A DNA stretch of 64,000 nt. Origin: Halopiger aswanensis (lineage in GTDB: Archaea > Halobacteriota > Halobacteria > Halobacteriales > Natrialbaceae). The DNA lies in NCBI RefSeq assembly GCF_003610195.1, contig NZ_RAPO01000002.1, positions 992,001-1,056,000 on the forward strand, given 5' to 3'. Made by a program: the position numbers and the translations under genes. Of the stretch, positions 34,533 to 54,954 are shown in pieces. Each line of letters begins with the position of its first letter. Position 1 is the stretch's first letter. Under the pieces are notes generated by a model. The model worked only from the letters and a program-made list of their open reading frames with translations, did not search any database and was not told the DNA's origin.

Positions 34533-35417
34533 TTGAGTTCGCACGCAGAATCCCAAGAACTCGGTAGAGGCCAGCAAACACTGCATGAGGCAGTTAATTC
34601 TCACCGGATCTATGAACCGGTTAGAGGTGTTCATCCCCGTGTCGAGCTTCCGGACGAGGAGTACGAGGAGTGGCTTGACAGTAACCAGGACGTCGAGTAC
34701 GTGGTAATCAACTTTTCAGATGCTCAGAAAGTCATCAAGCGGGATGGGGGCCTGCGCCAGGCCATCGAGCCGTGGCATATCCCAGTAATCCTCGGAACAG
34801 AGCACGACGACGATGTCAACAAGCGTACTTTCCAGGACGTAGTGGATCTGCTGGAGGTGGTGCAGCCAGCGATCTACGTCCCAGACGTGGTCTACAGCTA
34901 CAACTGGATGGAGGACGAAATCCAGGAAAACGCTATCGAGGCATACATCGGCCATGTCAGAGATCTCCAGAAGGAGATTATCGAGCAGGACTTCGATATC
35001 CGGTTGATCCCGACGAACAAGGGCTGGAAGTACGAACACTTCGTTGAGTACCGGGAGTTATACGATGAGTTCGATTACGAGGAGTTTGCGTTCTACGCTG
35101 TCCAGTACACCGGTGGGGATGCCGGTAACGGGATCAACGTGCTCCAGAGCCATGTCAGGAACTCCATCGCTGCTATAGACATGGAGGATGTTTTCCTGAT
35201 CGGATGGCTTGCGGAGGACGACCTGTTTGATTTCGCTCCGCGTGTCCGTGGTGCTACCGGGCTTCGGCAGTGGAAGGATGCCTGTTCTACGAGGAACGGG
35301 CTTTCGCAGGATCCGTGGCCAGAGTTTCAGGAAAGCCGCGAGGCCAAGCTTTCGTTTAACGAGGATCAGGAGCAGAGGCCGGTAAACGAGTTCTTCAGCG
35401 GAAAAGAGGATAACTGA
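34533..35417 (+). CDS. Possible TIM-barrel / tRNA-guanine-transglycosylase-like protein
   Basis: A 294-aa protein with alternating strands and helices: VEYVVINF, IPVILGTE, AIYVPDVV, IRLIPTNKGWKYEHFVEY, FAFYAVQYTGGDAG, VFLIGWLAEDDLFDFAPRVRGATGL. The PTNKGWKYEHF...EFAFYAVQ stretch is reminiscent of LQGWKPEQYL...YVAIGS in the DpdA-like protein at 62412, so a divergent TGT-like fold is possible. The start is TTG, because no ATG is in frame until late and homology-like structure begins early. It sits 3 nt before the DsbA-like gene, in one operon. Function unproven. Confidence 0.55.
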   Translation: MSSHAESQELGRGQQTLHEAVNSHRIYEPVRGVHPRVELPDEEYEEWLDSNQDVEYVVINFSDAQKVIKRDGGLRQAIEPWHIPVILGTEHDDDVNKRTFQDVVDLLEVVQPAIYVPDVVYSYNWMEDEIQENAIEAYIGHVRDLQKEIIEQDFDIRLIPTNKGWKYEHFVEYRELYDEFDYEEFAFYAVQYTGGDAGNGINVLQSHVRNSIAAIDMEDVFLIGWLAEDDLFDFAPRVRGATGLRQWKDACSTRNGLSQDPWPEFQESREAKLSFNEDQEQRPVNEFFSGKEDN

Positions 35418-35420
35418 ACG

Positions 35421-36710
35421 ATGTTCGTATTCCTTGGTTCATACAGCGGCGGTGATTACGATTCGTCGGATAGTGATGATTCACAGAATGATGGATCGAC
35501 TGACGATCATACTCAGACCGGTGTAGACGATTACACTGGAGACGACGGAGACGATAACCCCGAGGAAGATTCGGATAGCGCTGCAGGTGCTGCTGCAGGC
35601 GTTGCCGATGCTGCAGGTGCTGCCGCTGGTGCCGCTGGTGGAGGTGCGGGTGGTTCAGCTGGTGCTGCTGCCGGAGCCGGTGCTGGTGCAGGAGCAGTTA
35701 CAGAGCCGCCAGAAGGCGACGATCCCGGCGACACGGATGAAACCGATGAAGACGAAGACTGTGAAGAGGAGGAAGAGGAACAACCTGAACCCCCGGATAT
35801 TGAGGAACCGGACATAGATCCTGAAGACGACGTCGACGAGCCTGACACAGAGGAAGACACGGAAGAGGATGTCGACGAGTCCGAAGACGTCGAAGAGGAT
35901 ACGGAAGAGGAGGACTCGGACGATGAGGCGGCTGAAGACGAAGAGCAGGAGAGCGATGAAGACAACGAGGAAGACGAGGACGAGGAGGAAGATGAGACAG
36001 TGGTCGTGGTCCAGGAAGTCGATGCGTTGAGCGCCATGTCCTGGTGTGTCCAACCAGTGATGAAACGGGTTGAGGAGTGCTACGGTGAAGAGATTGAACT
36101 CTTCTACAAACCGGCTCCCGTCCGTGAAGTTGACCCAGAGCAGGAGAAGCAGAAGTGGATTGACGCCGGTCAGCAACTCGGTATGCCGGTTGATCCTTCG
36201 TTCTGGGAGGACGACCCGCCGATGTCTACGGAGCTAGTCAACAAGGCGTTCGAGGCAGCAGACAGGCAGCGTCGGGGTATGGATTACCTCAGGGCGTTGT
36301 GGCGGCATGGTGTTGCAGCTGGTCGGGACATCAACGACGAGGATGTTCTGGTCGACCTGGCATCAGATCTCGGCTTGGACCGGGAGCGTTTCGAGGAGGA
36401 CTTGGATGAGGTTGAATTGGAATCCGGTGGGCGTGGCGAGCTGCCGTTCACGTTCATGGAGATTCAGGGTGCTCCGGTACCGAAGAATGGCCGTGTCCGG
36501 TACTCGGACTTCAGGACTCAGTTCACGTTCCAGGGTGTCGAGGAGCAGGAGCCTCAGGATCTGCAGGGATTCGTAGAGGAGCATGGGCCTGTGGCCACGC
36601 CTGAAGTGATGGAGGTCTATGGTATCCGGCGTGAGGAAGCCGTGCAGCGTCTCCAGGATGTCGATGGAGTTTCGTCGTTCGAGGCTGGCGGAGAAGACTT
36701 CTGGTGTTGA
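35421..36710 (+). CDS. Ala/Gly-rich and acidic linker fused to a DsbA-like thioredoxin-fold domain
   Basis: A 429-aa protein in three parts. Residues about 52-95 are a Gly/Ala-rich stretch, about 97-190 are almost pure Asp/Glu, and the last 230 residues resemble the FrnE/DsbA family: SWCVQPVMKRVEECYG, GMPVDPSFWEDDPPMSTELVNKAFEAADRQ, ALWRHGVAAGRDI, then a small C-terminal HTH-like module (TPEVMEVYGIRREEAVQRL). The CxxC redox pair is absent; only one Cys (SWC) lies near the usual position. Disulfide exchange is therefore unlikely in the standard way. Co-transcribed with the TIM-barrel-like gene. Confidence 0.65.
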   Translation: MFVFLGSYSGGDYDSSDSDDSQNDGSTDDHTQTGVDDYTGDDGDDNPEEDSDSAAGAAAGVADAAGAAAGAAGGGAGGSAGAAAGAGAGAGAVTEPPEGDDPGDTDETDEDEDCEEEEEEQPEPPDIEEPDIDPEDDVDEPDTEEDTEEDVDESEDVEEDTEEEDSDDEAAEDEEQESDEDNEEDEDEEEDETVVVVQEVDALSAMSWCVQPVMKRVEECYGEEIELFYKPAPVREVDPEQEKQKWIDAGQQLGMPVDPSFWEDDPPMSTELVNKAFEAADRQRRGMDYLRALWRHGVAAGRDINDEDVLVDLASDLGLDRERFEEDLDEVELESGGRGELPFTFMEIQGAPVPKNGRVRYSDFRTQFTFQGVEEQEPQDLQGFVEEHGPVATPEVMEVYGIRREEAVQRLQDVDGVSSFEAGGEDFWC

Positions 36711-36715
36711 GTTAA

Positions 36716-37195
36716 TCAGATCTCATCGAGGCTATACTGTCTTTCTCGTCCCGTGGTGTCTATTGTTCTGATGGTGAGGCCCGAGGTACCGAAGTCTTCT
36801 AACAGGTTTCGGCAGGAGTTGCAGATATCCACATGGCGTGTGTCGCTGTAGACTGCTACGTCTGAGACTTCGCTGGCTCCTTCTGAGAGGGCTTTGTAGA
36901 TAGCTACTCGGAGTGCATGCACTGTGTCTTGTTCGCTGGGAATCTCTAACTCGGCTCCTGAGTAGATACTGTTGCTGTCGGTGTAGACCGTTGCCCCATT
37001 GCTTTCGCCGCTGGTAGAGTTCTTCGCAGCTTCTTTCGCGGTTTCCCGAAGTTCTTCTCGCAGCTCTTCTGGTGTCCGGCCTGTCCCCTGTGTTGACGGT
37101 GGCTGGATATCGAGGTCGCTCGGCTCAACCTGCCGGACCTTGTACGGTGTCAGGATGGTATCTTCGTCGTCCAGTCGGGCTTGATAATCGGTCAT
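36716..37195 (-). CDS. Cytidine-deaminase-like protein lacking the catalytic Glu
   Basis: A 159-aa protein. The C-terminal half follows the cytidine deaminase pattern: VHALRVAIYKALSEG (H93) and ICNSCRNLLEDFG (C125, C128), three residues that could hold zinc. The standard HAE motif reads HAL, so the proton-shuttling Glu is Leu95 and catalysis is doubtful. The N-terminal 60 residues are polar and probably disordered. Its start overlaps the stop of the McrB-N-like gene upstream, placing it last in the six-gene helicase/DndD-like operon. It might bind a nucleotide or modified base rather than deaminate it (inference). Confidence 0.6.
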   Translation of the reverse strand: MTDYQARLDDEDTILTPYKVRQVEPSDLDIQPPSTQGTGRTPEELREELRETAKEAAKNSTSGESNGATVYTDSNSIYSGAELEIPSEQDTVHALRVAIYKALSEGASEVSDVAVYSDTRHVDICNSCRNLLEDFGTSGLTIRTIDTTGRERQYSLDEI

Positions 37196-37788
37196 AGTTC
37201 TATGAAGTTGCTTGATTCGATGTCTGTGTTGCCGGTGCTGTAGAGTTCGGTGAAGTCAGGGTCGTCGCGGTCGTAGACGAACTCTTCACAGAAGGCCTGA
37301 ATCAGTGTGTCTGCAGATGGATCCTCTACTTCGAACCCGTAGTCTCGGAAGAGGAATGCTGCGAGTGGTTCGACAGGAACCTGCTCGCCACTGCACAGGT
37401 GTTCTCTGGCGAGTTCGGCGTGATTGTCGAAGAGTTTCCAGCGGCTTTTGCGTCCGTCTTTTTCGAACTCTCCGACTTTCAGGAGTGGAGTTGTTGTCCG
37501 GAGTGACGAGGGTGCGTATGTCCCGGCCACGTTTTTGTTGAACCAGAGCTCGGTTTCCTCAAAGTCGTCGACGGTGAAGGGTACGAGGTATGGCTTTTTC
37601 CCGGACCTCATTTCGAAGTACTTGTCGAAGAAGTCGTTGTAGTTGAAGTCCAGATCGTCAAGCCGGTTTTCCATACCTGCTTCTTGTCGAAGGCAGAGGT
37701 ATCCGGGGAACAAGCGGTGGATCGGCAGATCGACCAAGTCCCAGAACGATTCACGGACCACATCGACATCGAGGATGTATTCAGGCAT
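37192..37788 (-). CDS. Stand-alone homologue of the McrB N-terminal (specificity) domain
   Basis: A 198-aa protein colinear over its whole length with residues 1-202 of the McrB at 43846-45444. Shared features are FWxLxDxxIHRxFPGYL near the start, FxYNDFFDxxF, KPYxxPF, PVExxAAFLxRD, and DPxAxxLxxAFxxEFxYD near the end. In McrB this region precedes the AAA+ motor and should recognise DNA. Here the motor is absent and the domain lies between the 146-aa and deaminase-like genes of the neighbouring operon. It may give the DndD-like/helicase machinery the same target recognition as McrBC, or compete with it. Confidence 0.75.
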   Translation of the reverse strand: MPEYILDVDVVRESFWDLVDLPIHRLFPGYLCLRQEAGMENRLDDLDFNYNDFFDKYFEMRSGKKPYLVPFTVDDFEETELWFNKNVAGTYAPSSLRTTTPLLKVGEFEKDGRKSRWKLFDNHAELAREHLCSGEQVPVEPLAAFLFRDYGFEVEDPSADTLIQAFCEEFVYDRDDPDFTELYSTGNTDIESSNFIEL

Positions 37789-37803: not shown

Positions 37804-38244
37804 TTACTCTTCTGCTTCGTGAAGTGACTTAAGTTCGCTTGTCAGCTCGTTCAGCGCCTCGTCGGGACCGAACACCTTGCCGTGGAGCTTCTCAATTCCG
37901 CTGTTGGCGTATTCCTGGGCGATGGTGTAGACAAGTTTCTCGTCTCTGAGGATGTCAGGGTCTCGTGTTTCTTTGACTGCCACGGACTGGATAATCCATT
38001 CTTGTTCGTCTGCAAGGGAGTCCCGGCCAAACAGGTAATGGAGATCTCCGTCGAGTTCTACTCTGCCTCCTTTCTCCCGTCCGTAGCCCATAGCGAACAG
38101 GAATATTTCACGGAGTTCAACTTCGTAGAACGGGGAGGACTCGGTTGTCCTGAGTTCTTCGTAGAGTTCGCGTTTGGAGCGTTCAATGGCAACGTCACGA
38201 GGAGCTTCGGTTTCCTCGTATTCGACCTGGCTTGAGTCAGTCAT
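37804..38244 (-). CDS. 146-aa accessory protein of the DndD-like operon
   Basis: A small alpha-helical acidic protein with FYEVELREIFLFAMGYG and IIQSVAVKETRDPDILRDEKLVYTIAQEYANSGIEKL. Such short proteins accompany DndD/Dnd-restriction-type ATPases; I recall this pattern in Dnd-associated accessory families but cannot confirm the match. It overlaps the DndD-like gene by 4 nt (ATGA), so the two are made together and probably form a complex. Confidence 0.6.
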   Translation of the reverse strand: MTDSSQVEYEETEAPRDVAIERSKRELYEELRTTESSPFYEVELREIFLFAMGYGREKGGRVELDGDLHYLFGRDSLADEQEWIIQSVAVKETRDPDILRDEKLVYTIAQEYANSGIEKLHGKVFGPDEALNELTSELKSLHEAEE

Positions 38245-40214
38245 CGGTCATTCACCTGGGTAACGTCTTTTTCGTAGTTGAGACGGTATTCGTGGGCGAT
38301 ACTGGGTTTTAGCATGGCTTGGACTTCCTGGCTGTACTCTTCGTCGGTCATCAGGAATGTGATCTGCGTGTCCTGGAGGTAGTCAGGAAGGTTTTGGGCG
38401 ATCCTGCGTTTGGGGCGGCTGGAGATCCTGCCCAGTGGTGTGTCGATTACCAATGGTGCGCTGAATCCACTGATTTTGGAGAGGGCAGACATGAAGGAGA
38501 GAGCGAGTACCTGGCGTTCGCCAGCAGACAGGGAGCCAAGCTTTTTCTCTCCGCTGGGGCCGAAGACCTTCACCTGGTACTCGTCGGTAAGTTCTACGTC
38601 GTAATTTTCGTCTTTCCAGATAAGGTCGTTGAAATACTGATTCAGGTATTCCTCAGTTTCGTTCCTAACCTCTTTGAGAATCTCTGCCCTGATCTCCTGC
38701 ATCTCTTCTTCGCTGTCATCGATGAAAGAGATCTTCTTGGCGAGGACTTCGTATTTTTCCTCCTTCTCCAGTTCTTCCTGCCACGCCTGACGGCGATCCT
38801 TGACTTTCTGTTCCTGTTGCTCAATCTCTCCTCGCAGCTGGCCGACTTCTTCCCGCATCTGGCGGATACGTTCCTCGATTTCGCTCCTCTGCTGTTCTAA
38901 CTGGGCGACGTCGACGTCTTCCGGGATTTCTTTGCCTTCCAGTTCCTTGGAGATGTCTCGGAGCTGGCGTTCAATTCCCTCGATGTCGTCTTCGATACCG
39001 GTGATGTCCCCGACGCCTTGGAGGAGGGCGTTGAGTGAGTCGTCGGCCTGTGAGAGCAGGTGAGGTATCTCGATTTTACCCTCGATGTTCCCCTCGGTGA
39101 TTACGGCAACCTCTTTCCGCAGCTCTTCCAGATGTTCCCGTTTCTCTTCGTCATCTTCGAGTTCTGCGCCACAGATACATTCTCCGCGATCCAGTAGTTG
39201 GTCGAGGAACCAGTCTTGGATCTTTGGCGGCAGCTGTCCCTGGTTCTCCAACTCTTCCAGCTGTTCCAAGGTGAACCGGAGAGCGTCCTCGTTGTAGATC
39301 AGTGCGCCTGCTTCAGCGAAGTTCTCAGCGACTTCCGCACGTTTCTCTACAAGATCGTCTCGTTTCTCGTCCAGTCGGTCATTGAGGTTTTCACGCCGTT
39401 CGAGTTTTCGCTGGACTTCAGGGTCGCTGCTGCCTGCAAGCTTCTCATCGATTTCATCAAGCCGGTCGTTTGCATCCCTGATATCTCGCTCGTACTCTTC
39501 TTCCCGGGATTCGAGGTCTTCCAGCTTGTCTTCGGCTTCCTCGTATTTCTCTCGTTTCCGCTTGGCTTCGCCTTCGTATTCTGTGGAGGTTCGCTCTAAC
39601 TCTGTTCTAACGGTGTCTATGTGATCCAGTGACCGGTTCAGGAGTTCAATGTGGGAGACGTCCAGGATTGCGGATTCGACACGGTCGGTGTATCTCTTAT
39701 CGAAGAAGTCGTCCAACTGCTCTCCGTCGAAGAGGAAGTATTCGTGGACTCGTGTCGGCAGGATCTCTGAAAGCCGGGTGTGAGGGTTTGGTACGTCCCG
39801 CCAGTCCTGCTGGAATTTCTGTCGTAGACGGAGGTCGCCGGTAGCGTCACTGAAGTCTCCGTCTTCCCTTTTGGCGGTGCGGAACTCCCGTGTGAAGATG
39901 TACTTGGGTTCGTCCTTCCCGAGTGTGACTTCGACGTATCCGGACGCGCTCTCTCCTTCGTTGATTTCGTCCAGTCGGCGTTTGTTCACCAGTGGATCTG
40001 ATTCAAGGCCTTGTTCTTCCTGTGTTTCGAGGTGTGTTTCCTCGTTGTAGAAGCAGAGTGTGATAGCGTTGAGGAGGTTGGATTTCCCTGCTCCGTTCTG
40101 GCCTTCGATGATGTTGATATGTTGGTCGCCGTCGATCTTGAGGTCAATTCGGACTGTACCCTTGTACTGCCGGTAGTCCTTCAGCTCGATGTCGAAGATC
40201 TGCAGGTTGTTCAT
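38241..40214 (-). CDS. DndD-like SMC-family ATPase
   Basis: A 657-aa SMC/Rad50-type ATPase. Walker A is EGQNGAGKS (residues 37-45). Long coiled coils flank a hook-like ECICGAE (CxC, near residue 350). The C-terminal half-domain carries the signature LSAGERQVLALSF and Walker B-type LVIDTPLGRIS, followed by FLMTDEEY. The DTPLGR motif is characteristic of DndD and relatives. DndD acts in phosphorothioate DNA modification, but no dndA, B, C or E genes are visible here. The coupling to a PLD-helicase fits a restriction or surveillance complex better. It overlaps genes on both sides. Confidence 0.8.
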   Translation of the reverse strand: MNNLQIFDIELKDYRQYKGTVRIDLKIDGDQHINIIEGQNGAGKSNLLNAITLCFYNEETHLETQEEQGLESDPLVNKRRLDEINEGESASGYVEVTLGKDEPKYIFTREFRTAKREDGDFSDATGDLRLRQKFQQDWRDVPNPHTRLSEILPTRVHEYFLFDGEQLDDFFDKRYTDRVESAILDVSHIELLNRSLDHIDTVRTELERTSTEYEGEAKRKREKYEEAEDKLEDLESREEEYERDIRDANDRLDEIDEKLAGSSDPEVQRKLERRENLNDRLDEKRDDLVEKRAEVAENFAEAGALIYNEDALRFTLEQLEELENQGQLPPKIQDWFLDQLLDRGECICGAELEDDEEKREHLEELRKEVAVITEGNIEGKIEIPHLLSQADDSLNALLQGVGDITGIEDDIEGIERQLRDISKELEGKEIPEDVDVAQLEQQRSEIEERIRQMREEVGQLRGEIEQQEQKVKDRRQAWQEELEKEEKYEVLAKKISFIDDSEEEMQEIRAEILKEVRNETEEYLNQYFNDLIWKDENYDVELTDEYQVKVFGPSGEKKLGSLSAGERQVLALSFMSALSKISGFSAPLVIDTPLGRISSRPKRRIAQNLPDYLQDTQITFLMTDEEYSQEVQAMLKPSIAHEYRLNYEKDVTQVNDR

Positions 40215-40408
40215 TCGTCACCTTGCTCTTGTGTTTCCTCGATGTGTTCCTCGATCAGTTCTCTGTATTCGTCGGAATACTGGTAGTTTTCCCGGTCGAG
40301 TTTAGACCGTTCGAACCGGAGGATTTCGTTGATGAAGTTGCGGAGATCGTCCCGCTCGATCTCGTCTGTCTTCTCGAGTATGAGGGAGTGGACATCAGTT
40401 TCTTTCAT
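40211..40408 (-). CDS. 65-aa acidic helical protein between helicase and DndD-like genes
   Basis: A 65-aa protein, predominantly helical and charged (DDLRNFINEILRFERSKLDREN ... EYRELIEEHIEE). Its stop overlaps the start of the DndD-like gene by 4 nt, which argues that it is a genuine operon member. Possibly a bridging subunit. No family recognised. Confidence 0.65.
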   Translation of the reverse strand: MKETDVHSLILEKTDEIERDDLRNFINEILRFERSKLDRENYQYSDEYRELIEEHIEETQEQGDE

Positions 40409-42470: not shown

Positions 42471-42736
42471 TTATACTCTACAATGGCGGGAAGGTCCGAT
42501 AAGTGTATGGTTAGATTCTGTGGATTAGATGGAGTGAGCTGAGTGCAGATGATGTACTTTGTAGCTCTCGGTTATCCACTCCAAGTAACCAGCCTACTAA
42601 TTTCCACCAAGATGAGTTCTCAGAGAACTGACTCGGCCTGTATTACACTAAGCAGGACGATTGCCTGTAATCTAAGTCAACTACTTTCACTGGGGTTCCG
42701 GTGCGTTCAAGTGGTCGGTACTCAGTATTTCTTGTA
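42471..42736. promoter_or_regulatory. Divergent promoter region between the two restriction operons
   Basis: A 266-bp A+T-rich gap separates the start codons of the helicase (minus) and the methyltransferase (plus) genes. No gene is seen in it. It must hold both promoters and is the natural place for joint control, for example delaying restriction until methylation is established. I could not identify a clear operator. Confidence 0.45.
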
Positions 42737-43849
42737 ATGACTGAGAACGAGTCTGAGGATTCCGTTGTTCCATATCCGGATGCGGATCTTTCTGTTGAGA
42801 GGCCAACGATTCACGAAAGTGATGCAAGGGATGTCCCGCAAGAGGATGATTCTGTGGATATTATTTTTACATCGCCTCCGTATTGGCAGAAGCGTGACTA
42901 CGGTTTTGAGGACCAAATTGGGCAGGAAGAGACGCCCGAGGAGTTCATCGATACGTTGATTGATTGTATGGATGAGTGGAACCGGGTTTTGAAGCCGAAT
43001 GGTTCTCTATTCCTGAATATCGGTGACACGTACGATAACCGGAGTTTGGTTGGTATTCCCGAGATGCTAATGCAGGCTGCTCGTGAGAACGGGTGGCTTG
43101 TCCGGAATAAGATTCTGTGGGCGAAGCCGAGTGGGATGCCGGAGCCTGCTCCGAACAGGTTGGCAAATCGCCACGAGTACATTTTCCATTTCACCCGTAA
43201 CAACGAGTATTACTACGATCTGCACGCTTACTCGAAGGAGTACGGTAACGGCTCGAATCCTGGAGACATCTGGAACGTAGGTTTCGACCGGAATACTGGT
43301 GATCACTTGGCTCCTTTCCCGTCTGAGCTTCCGGAGCGTGCGTTGACGATGGCAGGTCCTCGTGCTGTATGCAGTGAGTGCGGTCAGCCGTTGGAGCGGA
43401 AGATGGTTCGTACGACGAAACTGGATGAGAGCAGAGATCAGGCTCGGCGTGCGATGGAGATCTACGAGGAGTCAGATCTGACTGAGGAGCATATCCGTGC
43501 TGTGCAGGCAGTCGGTATCTCTGATGCTGGTAAGGCGATGGAGATTCAGGATGGTACGGGCCGGAATGCTGACGATGTCCAAGAACTAGCTGATGAGGCG
43601 AAGGAAGTCCTCGGCGGGTATTTCCGTGAGTTCACGTTCCCGAAGAAGGAGACGGGCGGCTGGGAGGGCTGTGATTGTGATGCTCCTACGGAGCCTGGTG
43701 TTGCTATGGACCCGTTCATGGGTTCAGGCACGACCCTTCAGGCGGCGTTGAAGATGGGTTTGAACGCTGTCGGCGTGGACCTTGATCCTGTAGAGGATTT
43801 CCAGATGCCCATTCAGGCCAAGTCAAAGATCGAAAGTGAGTCTTCATGA
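42737..43849 (+). CDS. Beta-class DNA methyltransferase (m4C or m6A) coupled to McrBC
   Basis: A 370-aa SAM-dependent DNA methyltransferase. Catalytic motif IV TSPPYW is at residues 45-50 and SAM-binding motif I DPFMGSGTT at 325-333, the order of the beta class. SPPY favours N4-cytosine but does not exclude N6-adenine. An insert contains CSECGQP and later CDCDAP, possible zinc ligands, probably in the target-recognition region. The ATG at 42737 is preferred to an in-frame start at 42701. Its stop overlaps the McrB start (ATGA), so it is translated with the nuclease and probably protects host DNA. Confidence 0.88.
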   Translation: MTENESEDSVVPYPDADLSVERPTIHESDARDVPQEDDSVDIIFTSPPYWQKRDYGFEDQIGQEETPEEFIDTLIDCMDEWNRVLKPNGSLFLNIGDTYDNRSLVGIPEMLMQAARENGWLVRNKILWAKPSGMPEPAPNRLANRHEYIFHFTRNNEYYYDLHAYSKEYGNGSNPGDIWNVGFDRNTGDHLAPFPSELPERALTMAGPRAVCSECGQPLERKMVRTTKLDESRDQARRAMEIYEESDLTEEHIRAVQAVGISDAGKAMEIQDGTGRNADDVQELADEAKEVLGGYFREFTFPKKETGGWEGCDCDAPTEPGVAMDPFMGSGTTLQAALKMGLNAVGVDLDPVEDFQMPIQAKSKIESESS

Positions 43850-45444
43850 CGGAATACGTCCTGACCGAGGAAGCAGCCAGAGAAGCCTTCTGGGAGCTTA
43901 CTGACATCGAGATCCACCGCAGCTTTCCAGGGTACCTTGGGTTGAAGTGGGCCTCGTCGAAGGCTGGGACCACGGACGGCTTTCAGTTCGAGTACAACGA
44001 CTTCTTTGACACCTTTTTCAAGATCCGCGAGCAGGCGGTCGGGAAGCCTTACGTAATTCCGTTTAATCCAAATGAGGATCCCGATGCCGAAACCGAGAAC
44101 ATGTGGCTGCAGAACAACGCTGCTGGCTCCTACGGTCCTTCTTACAACGGTGTAACCTTCGGCAGTATGGTCGAAGATGTCTCTGGGCGTGCTACCAGTG
44201 CTGACTGGGAGTTGGTGGACGATTACTGGACAGTCGTCCGGGACGACATGCTGGAAGGAGACAGTATCCCGGTTGAGTTGGTGGCCGCATTTCTTCTTCG
44301 AGACTTCGTGATCGAGATGGACGACCCGGGTGCAGAAGGGCTTGTTGAAGCCTTCCAGGACGAGTTTGGGTACGACGAAAGCGATTCCGACTACAATGCA
44401 CTGTACCTGACCGATACTGGTCACATCGACGCTGACAATTTCGAGCAGTACGATTCATCGATGGGTAGCGGCTCCGGCACCGATGCTTCAACCAGTTCGA
44501 AATTGCAAGGGAAGGCGCGTGATATGGATCCTGCCGATCTCGGCCTTCTGGGGACTACGGGGCCGAGTCTTGACCTTGATGACATCGATATTGACGGCTT
44601 GAGCGACGACACCAGTTTCGACCGTGATGATGTCGAGGATTGGTTGATCGGTTTGAAGCGGAAGAAACAGGCCATCTTCTACGGGCCGCCAGGCACGGGC
44701 AAGACGTTCACTGCGAAGAAAATCGCGGATGAATTGGTGGAGGGTACTGATGGGTTCACTGATATCCTTCAGTTCCATCAGAACTACGAGTATGAGGACT
44801 TCATTCAGGGGATCCGACCATCGACGGATGGTAGCGATCTTTCGTATAGCTTGGAGAGCGGCACGTTCCTTGACTTCTGCGAAGAGGCAGGTGAACGGAG
44901 CAGTCCCTGTGTCTTGATTATCGACGAAATCAACCGGGCCGACCTCTCTGCTGTGTTTGGTGAGTTGATGTATCTCTTGGAGTATCGGGAGGACGATGTG
45001 CAGCTGGCGCAGAGCCAGGTCGATGAGGATGATTCGTACTTGGAGGAGAATGGTTTCGAGATTCCGGATAACGTCTACATCATCGGTACGATGAACACGG
45101 CAGACCGTTCCATCGCCTTGGTGGATTTCGCGTTGCGCCGGCGTTTCGCGTTCCTCAAGCTTCCTCCGAACTGGAGTGTATTGAGAGAGAAGTTCTCTGC
45201 TTCCGGTGTCGATGTCGACGACTTAGTCAATGTAATGGAATCCGTGAATGGTGATATCAATGATCAAAACTACGAGCTGGGGCACACGTACTTCTTAGAG
45301 GCCAGTGACCGGGATGAGGTCCGGAATATCTGGGAGCTGGAAATCGTGCCGTATCTCGAGGAGTTCTTCGTTGACCAGCAGAAGAAAGTAGATAACAACT
45401 ATACCTGGGACGAAATCACGTCTTCCAGCAGCTTCGATCTATAA
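43846..45444 (+). CDS. mcrB: McrB-family AAA+ GTPase
   Basis: A 532-aa McrB. Residues 1-202 are the DNA-recognition domain shared with the 198-aa protein at 37192, 205-265 a linker, then the AAA+ motor: Walker A GPPGTGKT (280-287), Walker B LIIDEINRA (357-365) and the McrB hallmark MNTADRS (416-422), followed by ALRRRFAF. It hydrolyses GTP to translocate DNA and drive McrC. Placed directly after a methyltransferase, which suggests the complex attacks DNA lacking, rather than carrying, its partner's methyl mark, as in LlaJI-like systems (inference). Confidence 0.92.
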   Translation: MTEYVLTEEAAREAFWELTDIEIHRSFPGYLGLKWASSKAGTTDGFQFEYNDFFDTFFKIREQAVGKPYVIPFNPNEDPDAETENMWLQNNAAGSYGPSYNGVTFGSMVEDVSGRATSADWELVDDYWTVVRDDMLEGDSIPVELVAAFLLRDFVIEMDDPGAEGLVEAFQDEFGYDESDSDYNALYLTDTGHIDADNFEQYDSSMGSGSGTDASTSSKLQGKARDMDPADLGLLGTTGPSLDLDDIDIDGLSDDTSFDRDDVEDWLIGLKRKKQAIFYGPPGTGKTFTAKKIADELVEGTDGFTDILQFHQNYEYEDFIQGIRPSTDGSDLSYSLESGTFLDFCEEAGERSSPCVLIIDEINRADLSAVFGELMYLLEYREDDVQLAQSQVDEDDSYLEENGFEIPDNVYIIGTMNTADRSIALVDFALRRRFAFLKLPPNWSVLREKFSASGVDVDDLVNVMESVNGDINDQNYELGHTYFLEASDRDEVRNIWELEIVPYLEEFFVDQQKKVDNNYTWDEITSSSSFDL

Positions 45445-53100: not shown

Positions 53101-54954
53101 ATGAAACTAGAGAAACTTCGGATCAGGAATTTCAGGTCGTACAAGGACTCCCAGGTCGTAAGTGTCGGAAATAAGCTGGTTCTGGTTGGGGAGAACAATG
53201 CGGGGAAATCGAATGTTCTCCGGGCTTTGGACATGTTCTTCGATATCAGTCCTACGTCTCCGCATACGGTAGAAGACTTCCATATGAAAGACACTGAGGA
53301 GGATATTGAGATTGAAGCCTGGTTTGAAGATCTGTCTGAGGAGGAAAAAGAGGTGTTTGATGAGTTCTTAGTGGATGATCGTCTATGGGTGAAGACGGTA
53401 TATCCGTTTGACGATGAAGGTGGTGTTGCTGAAAACAAGCAGTTTGTTGTGAAGAAGGAGGTTCCGGCAGAAGAAGACTTCCGAGGGTATGACGATATAA
53501 CTGCTGATGAGGCAGAAGAGATCTACAAACGGCATGAAGAGAAGCTTCAGCCACATCAGGTAGAGGATTGGAGTGGGAATCTGTATAAGAATGAGATCCA
53601 GCCAACGATAGGGAAATACCTTGAATCGGATGATGCAGAATGGGAAAACGAGGAGGTAGTGGATCCGAGAGGTATCAAAAAGAAGCTTAAAGCACATCTC
53701 CCTGAGTTCGAGTACTTTGAATCAGATAGGAACATTGAGGATGCAACTAAGACGAGTACGAGTGCTCTACTTGGAAAGCTTCTGGATGATGCTCTTGATT
53801 CCGTTTCTGACGAGGAAAAGAGCGAGATCGAGGATGCCTTAGAAGATGTCGATGAAAAACTCAATCAAGAGGATAAGTTTGATCAGATCAAGGACTTGGA
53901 GTCGGAGCTACAGGAGAAGCTGTCTGAACACGTCCCTGTTGACAATGTAAATCTCGAGATTGATGTTCCTGACTTAGACTCGATCCTCTCGAGGGTCAAC
54001 GTCTCGATCGACGACGGTGTCAAAACTGATATCACCACGATGGGTTCTGGCCTCCATACTTCTTTCATCCTGGCTTGTCTCTGGCAGATAAACGAGGGAG
54101 ATACCGGCGATAAGGATATCATCTTCGGGCTGGAGGAACCGGAGAACGATCTTCACCCACATGCGCAACGCCAGCTCTACGATACTTTAGATGACTTAGC
54201 AGAACAGGACTACCAAGTCGTGCTCTCGACCCATTCCGCATTCCTCGTAAGTTCCGAGGATCTGTTTGATACAGTCCGGGTTGAGAAGCCAAGTAATGAA
54301 TCCCAGCTTCACTCTATTGACACCGACTCTTTCGATGAACAGGAGATGGATAAAATCCGGAGTAAGATAACGCCGGACAACAATGAGGTATTCTTCTCAC
54401 GTGCGGTCCTCCTCTGTGAAGGCCAGTCAGAACTCCAGGCCCTTCCTGTATTGAACTCGTTGGTAGATGGTGTGAAAGACGATGTCTACGCGTTCGACCG
54501 GTTAGGGATCTCGCTGATAGAGGTCAACGGTAAGATCGGTTTTAAGAATTTCTTGAAGGTCACAGACATGTTCAATATTCAGTCGATAGTGCTGGTGGAT
54601 AATGACCGGGAGAAGGATGAGGGACATGAAGAGCTGATCGAGGAACTCGAGGAGAAGGCAGACGAACTCGTTGAACTCCCTCTTGACTTTGAGGAACAGT
54701 TCTTCAGCTCGATCACATTCGAGCAGTTCTGTACTGCGATGAGTAGGATCTCTAACTACGATACGACGGCTGACAACCTATCTACAAGGCAGGAAAACAC
54801 CGGGGAATCCAGACAGGAGATCCTAAGAAGTGAGTTCGAAAAAGAGCAGCCTTCAAAACCCCAGTTAGGACGTACATTGGCGAAAGAAGTCTCCGAGGAC
54901 GAGGTACCTGAAGAGATCGTCCACGTGTTCAAGCAGTGTAAAGAGATAGTGTAG
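53101..54954 (+). CDS. OLD-family ATP-dependent nuclease (AAA+/TOPRIM)
   Basis: A 617-aa protein. The ABC-type ATPase half has Walker A GENNAGKS (near residues 30-37), signature-like MGSGLHTSF and Walker B FGLEEPENDLHP. The C-terminal TOPRIM nuclease has LLCEGQSELQALP (catalytic Glu) and VLVDNDRE (DxD). It should nick or degrade DNA in an ATP-regulated way and is linked to phage exclusion. No UvrD-like gajB gene is adjacent, so it is a stand-alone class 1-like OLD rather than a Gabija pair. Confidence 0.9.
   Translation: MKLEKLRIRNFRSYKDSQVVSVGNKLVLVGENNAGKSNVLRALDMFFDISPTSPHTVEDFHMKDTEEDIEIEAWFEDLSEEEKEVFDEFLVDDRLWVKTVYPFDDEGGVAENKQFVVKKEVPAEEDFRGYDDITADEAEEIYKRHEEKLQPHQVEDWSGNLYKNEIQPTIGKYLESDDAEWENEEVVDPRGIKKKLKAHLPEFEYFESDRNIEDATKTSTSALLGKLLDDALDSVSDEEKSEIEDALEDVDEKLNQEDKFDQIKDLESELQEKLSEHVPVDNVNLEIDVPDLDSILSRVNVSIDDGVKTDITTMGSGLHTSFILACLWQINEGDTGDKDIIFGLEEPENDLHPHAQRQLYDTLDDLAEQDYQVVLSTHSAFLVSSEDLFDTVRVEKPSNESQLHSIDTDSFDEQEMDKIRSKITPDNNEVFFSRAVLLCEGQSELQALPVLNSLVDGVKDDVYAFDRLGISLIEVNGKIGFKNFLKVTDMFNIQSIVLVDNDREKDEGHEELIEELEEKADELVELPLDFEEQFFSSITFEQFCTAMSRISNYDTTADNLSTRQENTGESRQEILRSEFEKEQPSKPQLGRTLAKEVSEDEVPEEIVHVFKQCKEIV

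Follow-up and report, generated by a model that had tools for sequence, protein, structure and literature searches.

A detached McrB-type N-terminal domain as a candidate reader subunit of a methylation-type PbeABCD operon in a haloarchaeon

The window analysed here (64,000 nt of Halopiger aswanensis contig NZ_RAPO01000002.1) encodes a 198-aa protein. We somewhat favour the view that it is the target reader, present as a separate subunit, of a PbeABCD defence operon of the methylation type. The proposal draws on the observed homology of this protein to the N-terminal domain of a neighbouring McrB, the operon structure, a constant partnership with one methyltransferase family, the occurrence of split and fused McrBC forms, a shared peptide, and the presence in the genome of a single methyltransferase of that family. 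The protein would bind the sequence that its cognate methyltransferase modifies and tell unmodified from modified DNA, presumably in that direction, and so flag foreign DNA to PbeA, the nuclease-helicase, and to a clamp of PbeC and PbeD. A deaminase-like protein, putatively docked through its N-terminal KVRxLSxxDLGI peptide, would probably bridge it to the rest. In the McrB encoded nearby, the domain is joined to a motor within one protein; a single methyltransferase would protect the host against both machines, Pbe and McrBC, if, as we suppose, they share a target. Coordinates are collected in Table 1.

Table 1. Features of the window and, in the last row, of related loci
Feature	Position	Strand	Evidence
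Cytidine-deaminase-like protein, 159 aa	36716..37195	-	Pfam PF00383 8e-9; alignment with 8 relatives
Shared linear motif YKVRQVEPSDLDI, deaminase-like residues 18-30	37106..37144	-	Motif profile
Stand-alone McrB-N-type domain, 198 aa (protein under study)	37192..37788	-	ORF and BLASTP
PbeD / clade-2 DndE-type protein, 146 aa	37804..38244	-	TIGR04062 3.5e-9, below cut-off; conserved place after PbeC in relatives
PbeC, CxC-type ABC ATPase, 657 aa, CIC in sequence	38241..40214	-	PADLOC PbeC 9.9e-264
PbeB, small protein, 65 aa, between A and C	40211..40408	-	BLASTP to same-place small proteins
PbeA, PLD/HKD nuclease fused to SF2 helicase, 672 aa	40452..42470	-	PADLOC PbeA 2.9e-235; TIGR04095 4.8e-137, below cut-off
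DNA methyltransferase, TSPPYW motif, probably N4-cytosine	42701..43849	+	PF01555 4.5e-39
McrB, N-domain and AAA GTPase, 532 aa	43846..45444	+	PF07728 1.1e-19; PRK11331 6.9e-47
N-domain of fused McrB	43846..44448	+	BLASTP with 198-aa protein
Shared linear motif GKARDMDPADLGL, just after McrB N-domain, residues 222-234	44509..44547	+	Motif profile
McrC, 404 aa	45448..46662	+	PF10117 8.2e-39
Homing-endonuclease-fold proteins	L056:13595-14584, L057:13583-14575, L094, L097		Near Pbe genes

The 198-aa Protein and Its Homology to McrB

BLASTP aligns the 198-aa product over its whole length (residues 1-195) with residues 1-199 of the McrB encoded at 43846-45444, with 78 of 200 positions identical (39%, 153 bits, E=2e-48); the stretches IHRxFPGYL, YNDFFD, KPY, and PVExxAAFL fall inside this alignment. 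An AAA/P-loop, and thus a motor, is absent from the 198-aa protein. The gene lies exactly where an earlier note on this DNA had placed it, on the minus strand (which that note did not give); its description as an McrB N-domain protein that keeps the McrB motifs and has no motor holds, and the similarity of the two domains, on which it had made the idea depend, is significant. The solo domain is a functional gene under purifying selection, since dN/dS is 0.02-0.09 between pairs of close relatives.

No Pfam entry matches the 198-aa protein at E<=1, and the protein together with nine relatives gave no convincing Pfam or NCBIfam family match; PADLOC has nothing matching the solo protein. A DUF3578 profile matches neither the solo protein nor the window McrB. 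No DNA-binding fold could be assigned: the AlphaFold models reach a pLDDT of only 54 and 68, Foldseek returned nothing, and PDB and BFVD fold searches with the N-domain models gave no match. Two candidate identities were set aside. The MTaX1 profile, PF20296, does not match the solo protein (Pfam, E<=1), nor 10 of its relatives at E<=5; and the sole match of a PDB sequence profile, to the designed repeat protein Scone-E (2.6e-4, with no stretch passing alone), was taken as spurious.

The Pbe Operon and Its Surroundings

The minus-strand genes run in the order PbeA-PbeB-PbeC-PbeD-N-domain-deaminase-like, with the N-domain gene fifth; from PbeB onward they overlap or nearly touch, and the start codon of the deaminase-like gene overlaps the N-domain stop. 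The small PbeB product resembles those at the same place in other loci (BLASTP, 46% and 1.5e-13 for L056; 43% and 1.4e-12 for L031); the earlier reader did not list it. Gene content and order suggest that this PbeABCD operon of the CxC type is complete; genes for phosphorothioation are not part of it. The "DndD-like/helicase complex" of the earlier note therefore corresponds to PbeABCD, the CxC ABC-ATPase system described in PMC6459918 and PMC10853773. The dndC profile TIGR03183 has no match in the genome itself, so the system is of the methylation rather than the phosphorothioation type.

GC content falls from about 0.67 to about 0.5 over 31500-64000, a stretch that also contains two Orc1/Cdc6-like genes, two tyrosine recombinase-like genes, and an OLD/GajA-like gene (53101-54954), and forms a defence-rich island that is probably mobile. 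Within it, a plus-strand gene at 34533-35417 encodes a tRNA-guanine transglycosylase-like protein (PADLOC TGT, 1e-21), and the next gene (35421-36710) a protein whose N-terminus is long and acidic and which has a DsbA domain (PF01323, 5.5e-9).

Distribution and Gene Neighborhoods

The N-domain was found in 15 of 391 haloarchaeal genomes; among GTDB contigs and plasmids its relatives are solely haloarchaeal, and none outside this group turned up in the phylum sample, IMG/VR, or phages. PbeC is present in 12 of the 15 carriers, against 37 of the 391 genomes overall (1.4 expected), and in all 12 the domain lies within the same gene run as the Pbe genes (the G363 run is cut by contig ends). The loci of G039, G128, G292, G344, and G385 are nearly identical, as are those of G071 and G363; the domain-plus-PbeC loci represent about seven independent lineages. 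The common order is PbeA-B-C-D, methyltransferase, N-domain, deaminase-like; the methyltransferase is downstream in G102 and G220, and in the divergent McrBC unit in the window. Deep branches of the N-domain tree are unresolved (supports 53-87).

These neighborhoods bear on both roles that the earlier note had offered. One was an antagonist that competes with McrB; put more broadly, the protein would compete for the target or partner of McrB and act as an antagonist or regulator of McrBC. The solo domain and McrB do occur together in the window, within 7 kb, but 8 of the 12 genomes with Pbe and the domain have no McrC match and 2 more have only distant ones, and the domain has a conserved operon of its own; as a general role this reading is very improbable. 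The other, an adaptor for the DndD-like/helicase complex, fared better in part: the domain shares the PbeABCD operon in those 12 of 15 carriers, and in two relatives it is a separate subunit gene of McrBC. The most constant partners of the domain, however, are the methyltransferase and the deaminase-like protein rather than DndD/helicase, and at two loci (G221 and G007) no Pbe gene was found within the 20 kb read. The order there is GHKL-ATPase, a 247-aa gene, methyltransferase, N-domain, deaminase-like (L058:5417-11071 and L030:9206-14875; the 685-aa ATPase is 96% identical in the two genomes), possibly an undescribed defence system.

The methyltransferase association suggests an alternative to the reader role, in which the 198-aa protein is an accessory of the methyltransferase (a target-recognition or activator subunit of modification) with no part in restriction. 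Of the 14 genomes whose stand-alone copy lies outside McrBC, 11 have it directly after the methyltransferase; the two loci without Pbe genes are among them. Identities of N-domain and methyltransferase also co-vary (r=0.61, Mantel p=0.011, from seven or eight distinct loci). In a mirror-tree comparison over the same small number of loci, the N-domain correlates about equally with the methyltransferase, Pbe, and deaminase-like proteins (0.49-0.63), so that no single partner is picked out. Arguments against a purely accessory role are that fusion to, or an operon with, an AAA McrB motor links the same domain to restriction; that the window copy stays with Pbe though its methyltransferase is on the McrBC side; and that the methyltransferase has a conserved middle region of its own. 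We regard the accessory role as unlikely.

In other haloarchaeal Pbe loci the genes after PbeD differ, with other methyltransferases near most of them. Four have a homing-endonuclease-fold (LAGLIDADG-like) protein nearby (PDB profile match 3e-10), likewise of a fold that recognises sequences, which by analogy might perhaps be their sequence reader; this would suggest that Pbe loci hold a slot for exchangeable recognition proteins.

The McrBC Unit and a Single Methyltransferase

The methyltransferase, McrB, and McrC genes lie on the strand opposite to the Pbe operon, with the methyltransferase gene overlapping mcrB. In two relatives, G228 and G220, the McrB N-domain is a separate ORF, followed by McrC and an McrB that is AAA-only. 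The window McrB is therefore a fusion of parts that these genomes keep apart, and the domain can serve a motor in trans. An insertion element, recognisable by terminal inverted repeats and a TTCAG duplication, splits the G220 ORF and is visible at two contig ends of that one genome (L031:1-286 and L033:13682-14161).

The cognate methyltransferase family is present in 14 of the 15 carriers. The window genome and G220 each have exactly one member of it, on the McrBC side; neither of their Pbe operons has a family copy of its own. The McrBC-side enzymes of these two genomes are 66-67% identical, while the window enzyme is 50-58% identical to Pbe-side copies. Between McrBC-side and Pbe-side enzymes the best conserved part is the middle region between the catalytic motifs, where target recognition would be expected. 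The simplest reading is that McrBC-side and Pbe-side recognition share a target, and the methyltransferase of the McrBC unit probably protects the site of the Pbe system. In G220 a shared target is doubtful, since its stand-alone copy lacks several stretches that are otherwise conserved in the alignment.

The sense of the discrimination could also be reversed, with the 198-aa protein reading methylated self DNA and restraining or licensing the Pbe complex rather than finding unmodified foreign sites. In known PbeABCD systems the phosphorothioate modification genes are needed for defence, and their absence causes no growth defect (PMC6459918); in addition, E. coli-type McrB N-domains bind methylated cytosine (PMC11090510). 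Yet McrBC would then be directed against self DNA, since its McrB has the same domain and lies beside a methyltransferase, and LlaJI-type systems attack unmethylated DNA (PMC1459862). Self-reading thus seems improbable to us, and recognition of unmodified foreign sites remains the preferred role.

A Peptide Shared by McrB and the Deaminase-like Protein

The deaminase-like protein keeps its H/C/C zinc ligands, and has Leu at the position of the catalytic Glu. Relatives in L020-L031 likewise have H-x-[LI], with Leu or Ile at this position and the zinc ligands kept, so the protein looks like a repurposed deaminase. In L027, L028, and L031 it is part of long proteins (659-699 aa); a GyrA-type C-terminal beta-propeller was confirmed in that of L031, the one tested.

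Near their N terminus, the deaminase-like proteins have a peptide, KVRxLSxxDLG[IL], that is shared, among McrBs, only by those using this N-domain family. A profile built from the deaminase-like proteins only was used to rank the other ORFs of 24 loci, which hold 537 ORFs in all. Three McrBs came out high: the AAA-only one of G220 in first place, that of the window in fourth, and the AAA-only one of G228 in eighth; none of 300 column-shuffled motifs ranked all three as high. Their peptide scores are 19.3, 13.3, and 11.9, and 27 other haloarchaeal McrBs do not exceed 5.9 in that region. The AAA parts of the other two show 57% and 49% similarity to that of the window, and the three form one AAA clade and so are not independent events; that an unrelated fold, the deaminase-like one, also has the peptide is separate evidence.

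This distribution would make the peptide a putative docking site for the N-domain, and points to the deaminase-like protein as a likely docking partner. The peptide was found in no Pbe protein itself, and the link of the N-domain to PbeA, PbeC, and PbeD is therefore by operon only.

Implications

The methyltransferase, reader, and docking-peptide partner might form a portable cassette that is plugged into three unrelated effectors: PbeABCD, McrBC, and the GHKL-ATPase system. We put this forward tentatively, as possible but on balance doubtful; if true, two restriction engines in the window would share a methyltransferase and a target, and a single modification would guard against both.

For methylation-type PbeABCD, earlier work has either PbeD/DndE or an MTaX1 reader find the foreign DNA. 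The present locus gives a concrete, testable candidate reader, related to the domain that is presumed to set the specificity of the neighboring McrBC. It also suggests that specificity subunits and protecting methyltransferases may be exchanged and shared between restriction systems that differ in mechanism. The shared peptide offers a direct biochemical handle.

Comparison with Known Systems

Each element of this arrangement has a precedent; the combination (an McrB N-domain as a putative Pbe subunit, beside an McrBC with the same domain and a shared methyltransferase) appears nowhere in the literature searched. A Pbe-McrBC link through this N-domain was likewise not found there, and may have been mentioned earlier, for example in the source of MTaX1 (Krishnan 2020).

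The window operon resembles PbeABCD/CxC systems in apparently having all four Pbe genes in order, and is of the methyltransferase type. Methyltransferases in place of phosphorothioation are already known for many CxC/Pbe loci (Xiong 2019 PMC6459918; PMC10853773), and CxC systems that are linked to a methylase and include a gene for the reader MTaX1 have been reported (PMC10853773). The reader proposed there is MTaX1, whereas here it would belong to the McrB N-terminal domain family, with no PF20296 match. Phosphorothioation-linked systems (DndCDEA-PbeABCD) differ in having dndC, absent from the window genome. The PbeD of PbeABCD is a clade-2 DndE with two RHH units; the 146-aa window protein matches TIGR04062 below cut-off.

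Compared with E. coli McrBC (Type IV), the likeness lies in a fused N-terminal domain and AAA GTPase, with McrC. The N-domain there is ADAM/DUF3578 (PMC11090510), while the window McrB lacks DUF3578 and its gene is overlapped by that of a methyltransferase.

LlaJI, LlaI, and BsuM share with the window unit an McrB-type motor, McrC, and a methyltransferase. Their specificity lies in the McrB-type subunit, R1.LlaJI being the sole specificity subunit of its McrBC-like R-M system; the three-gene cassettes of LlaI and BsuM include a short McrB that consists of AAA only (PMC1459862). The window N-domain matches no named Pfam domain, and it is on this basis that it is set apart from theirs. Unlike these systems, the window has a detached copy of the N-domain in an operon that is not McrBC.
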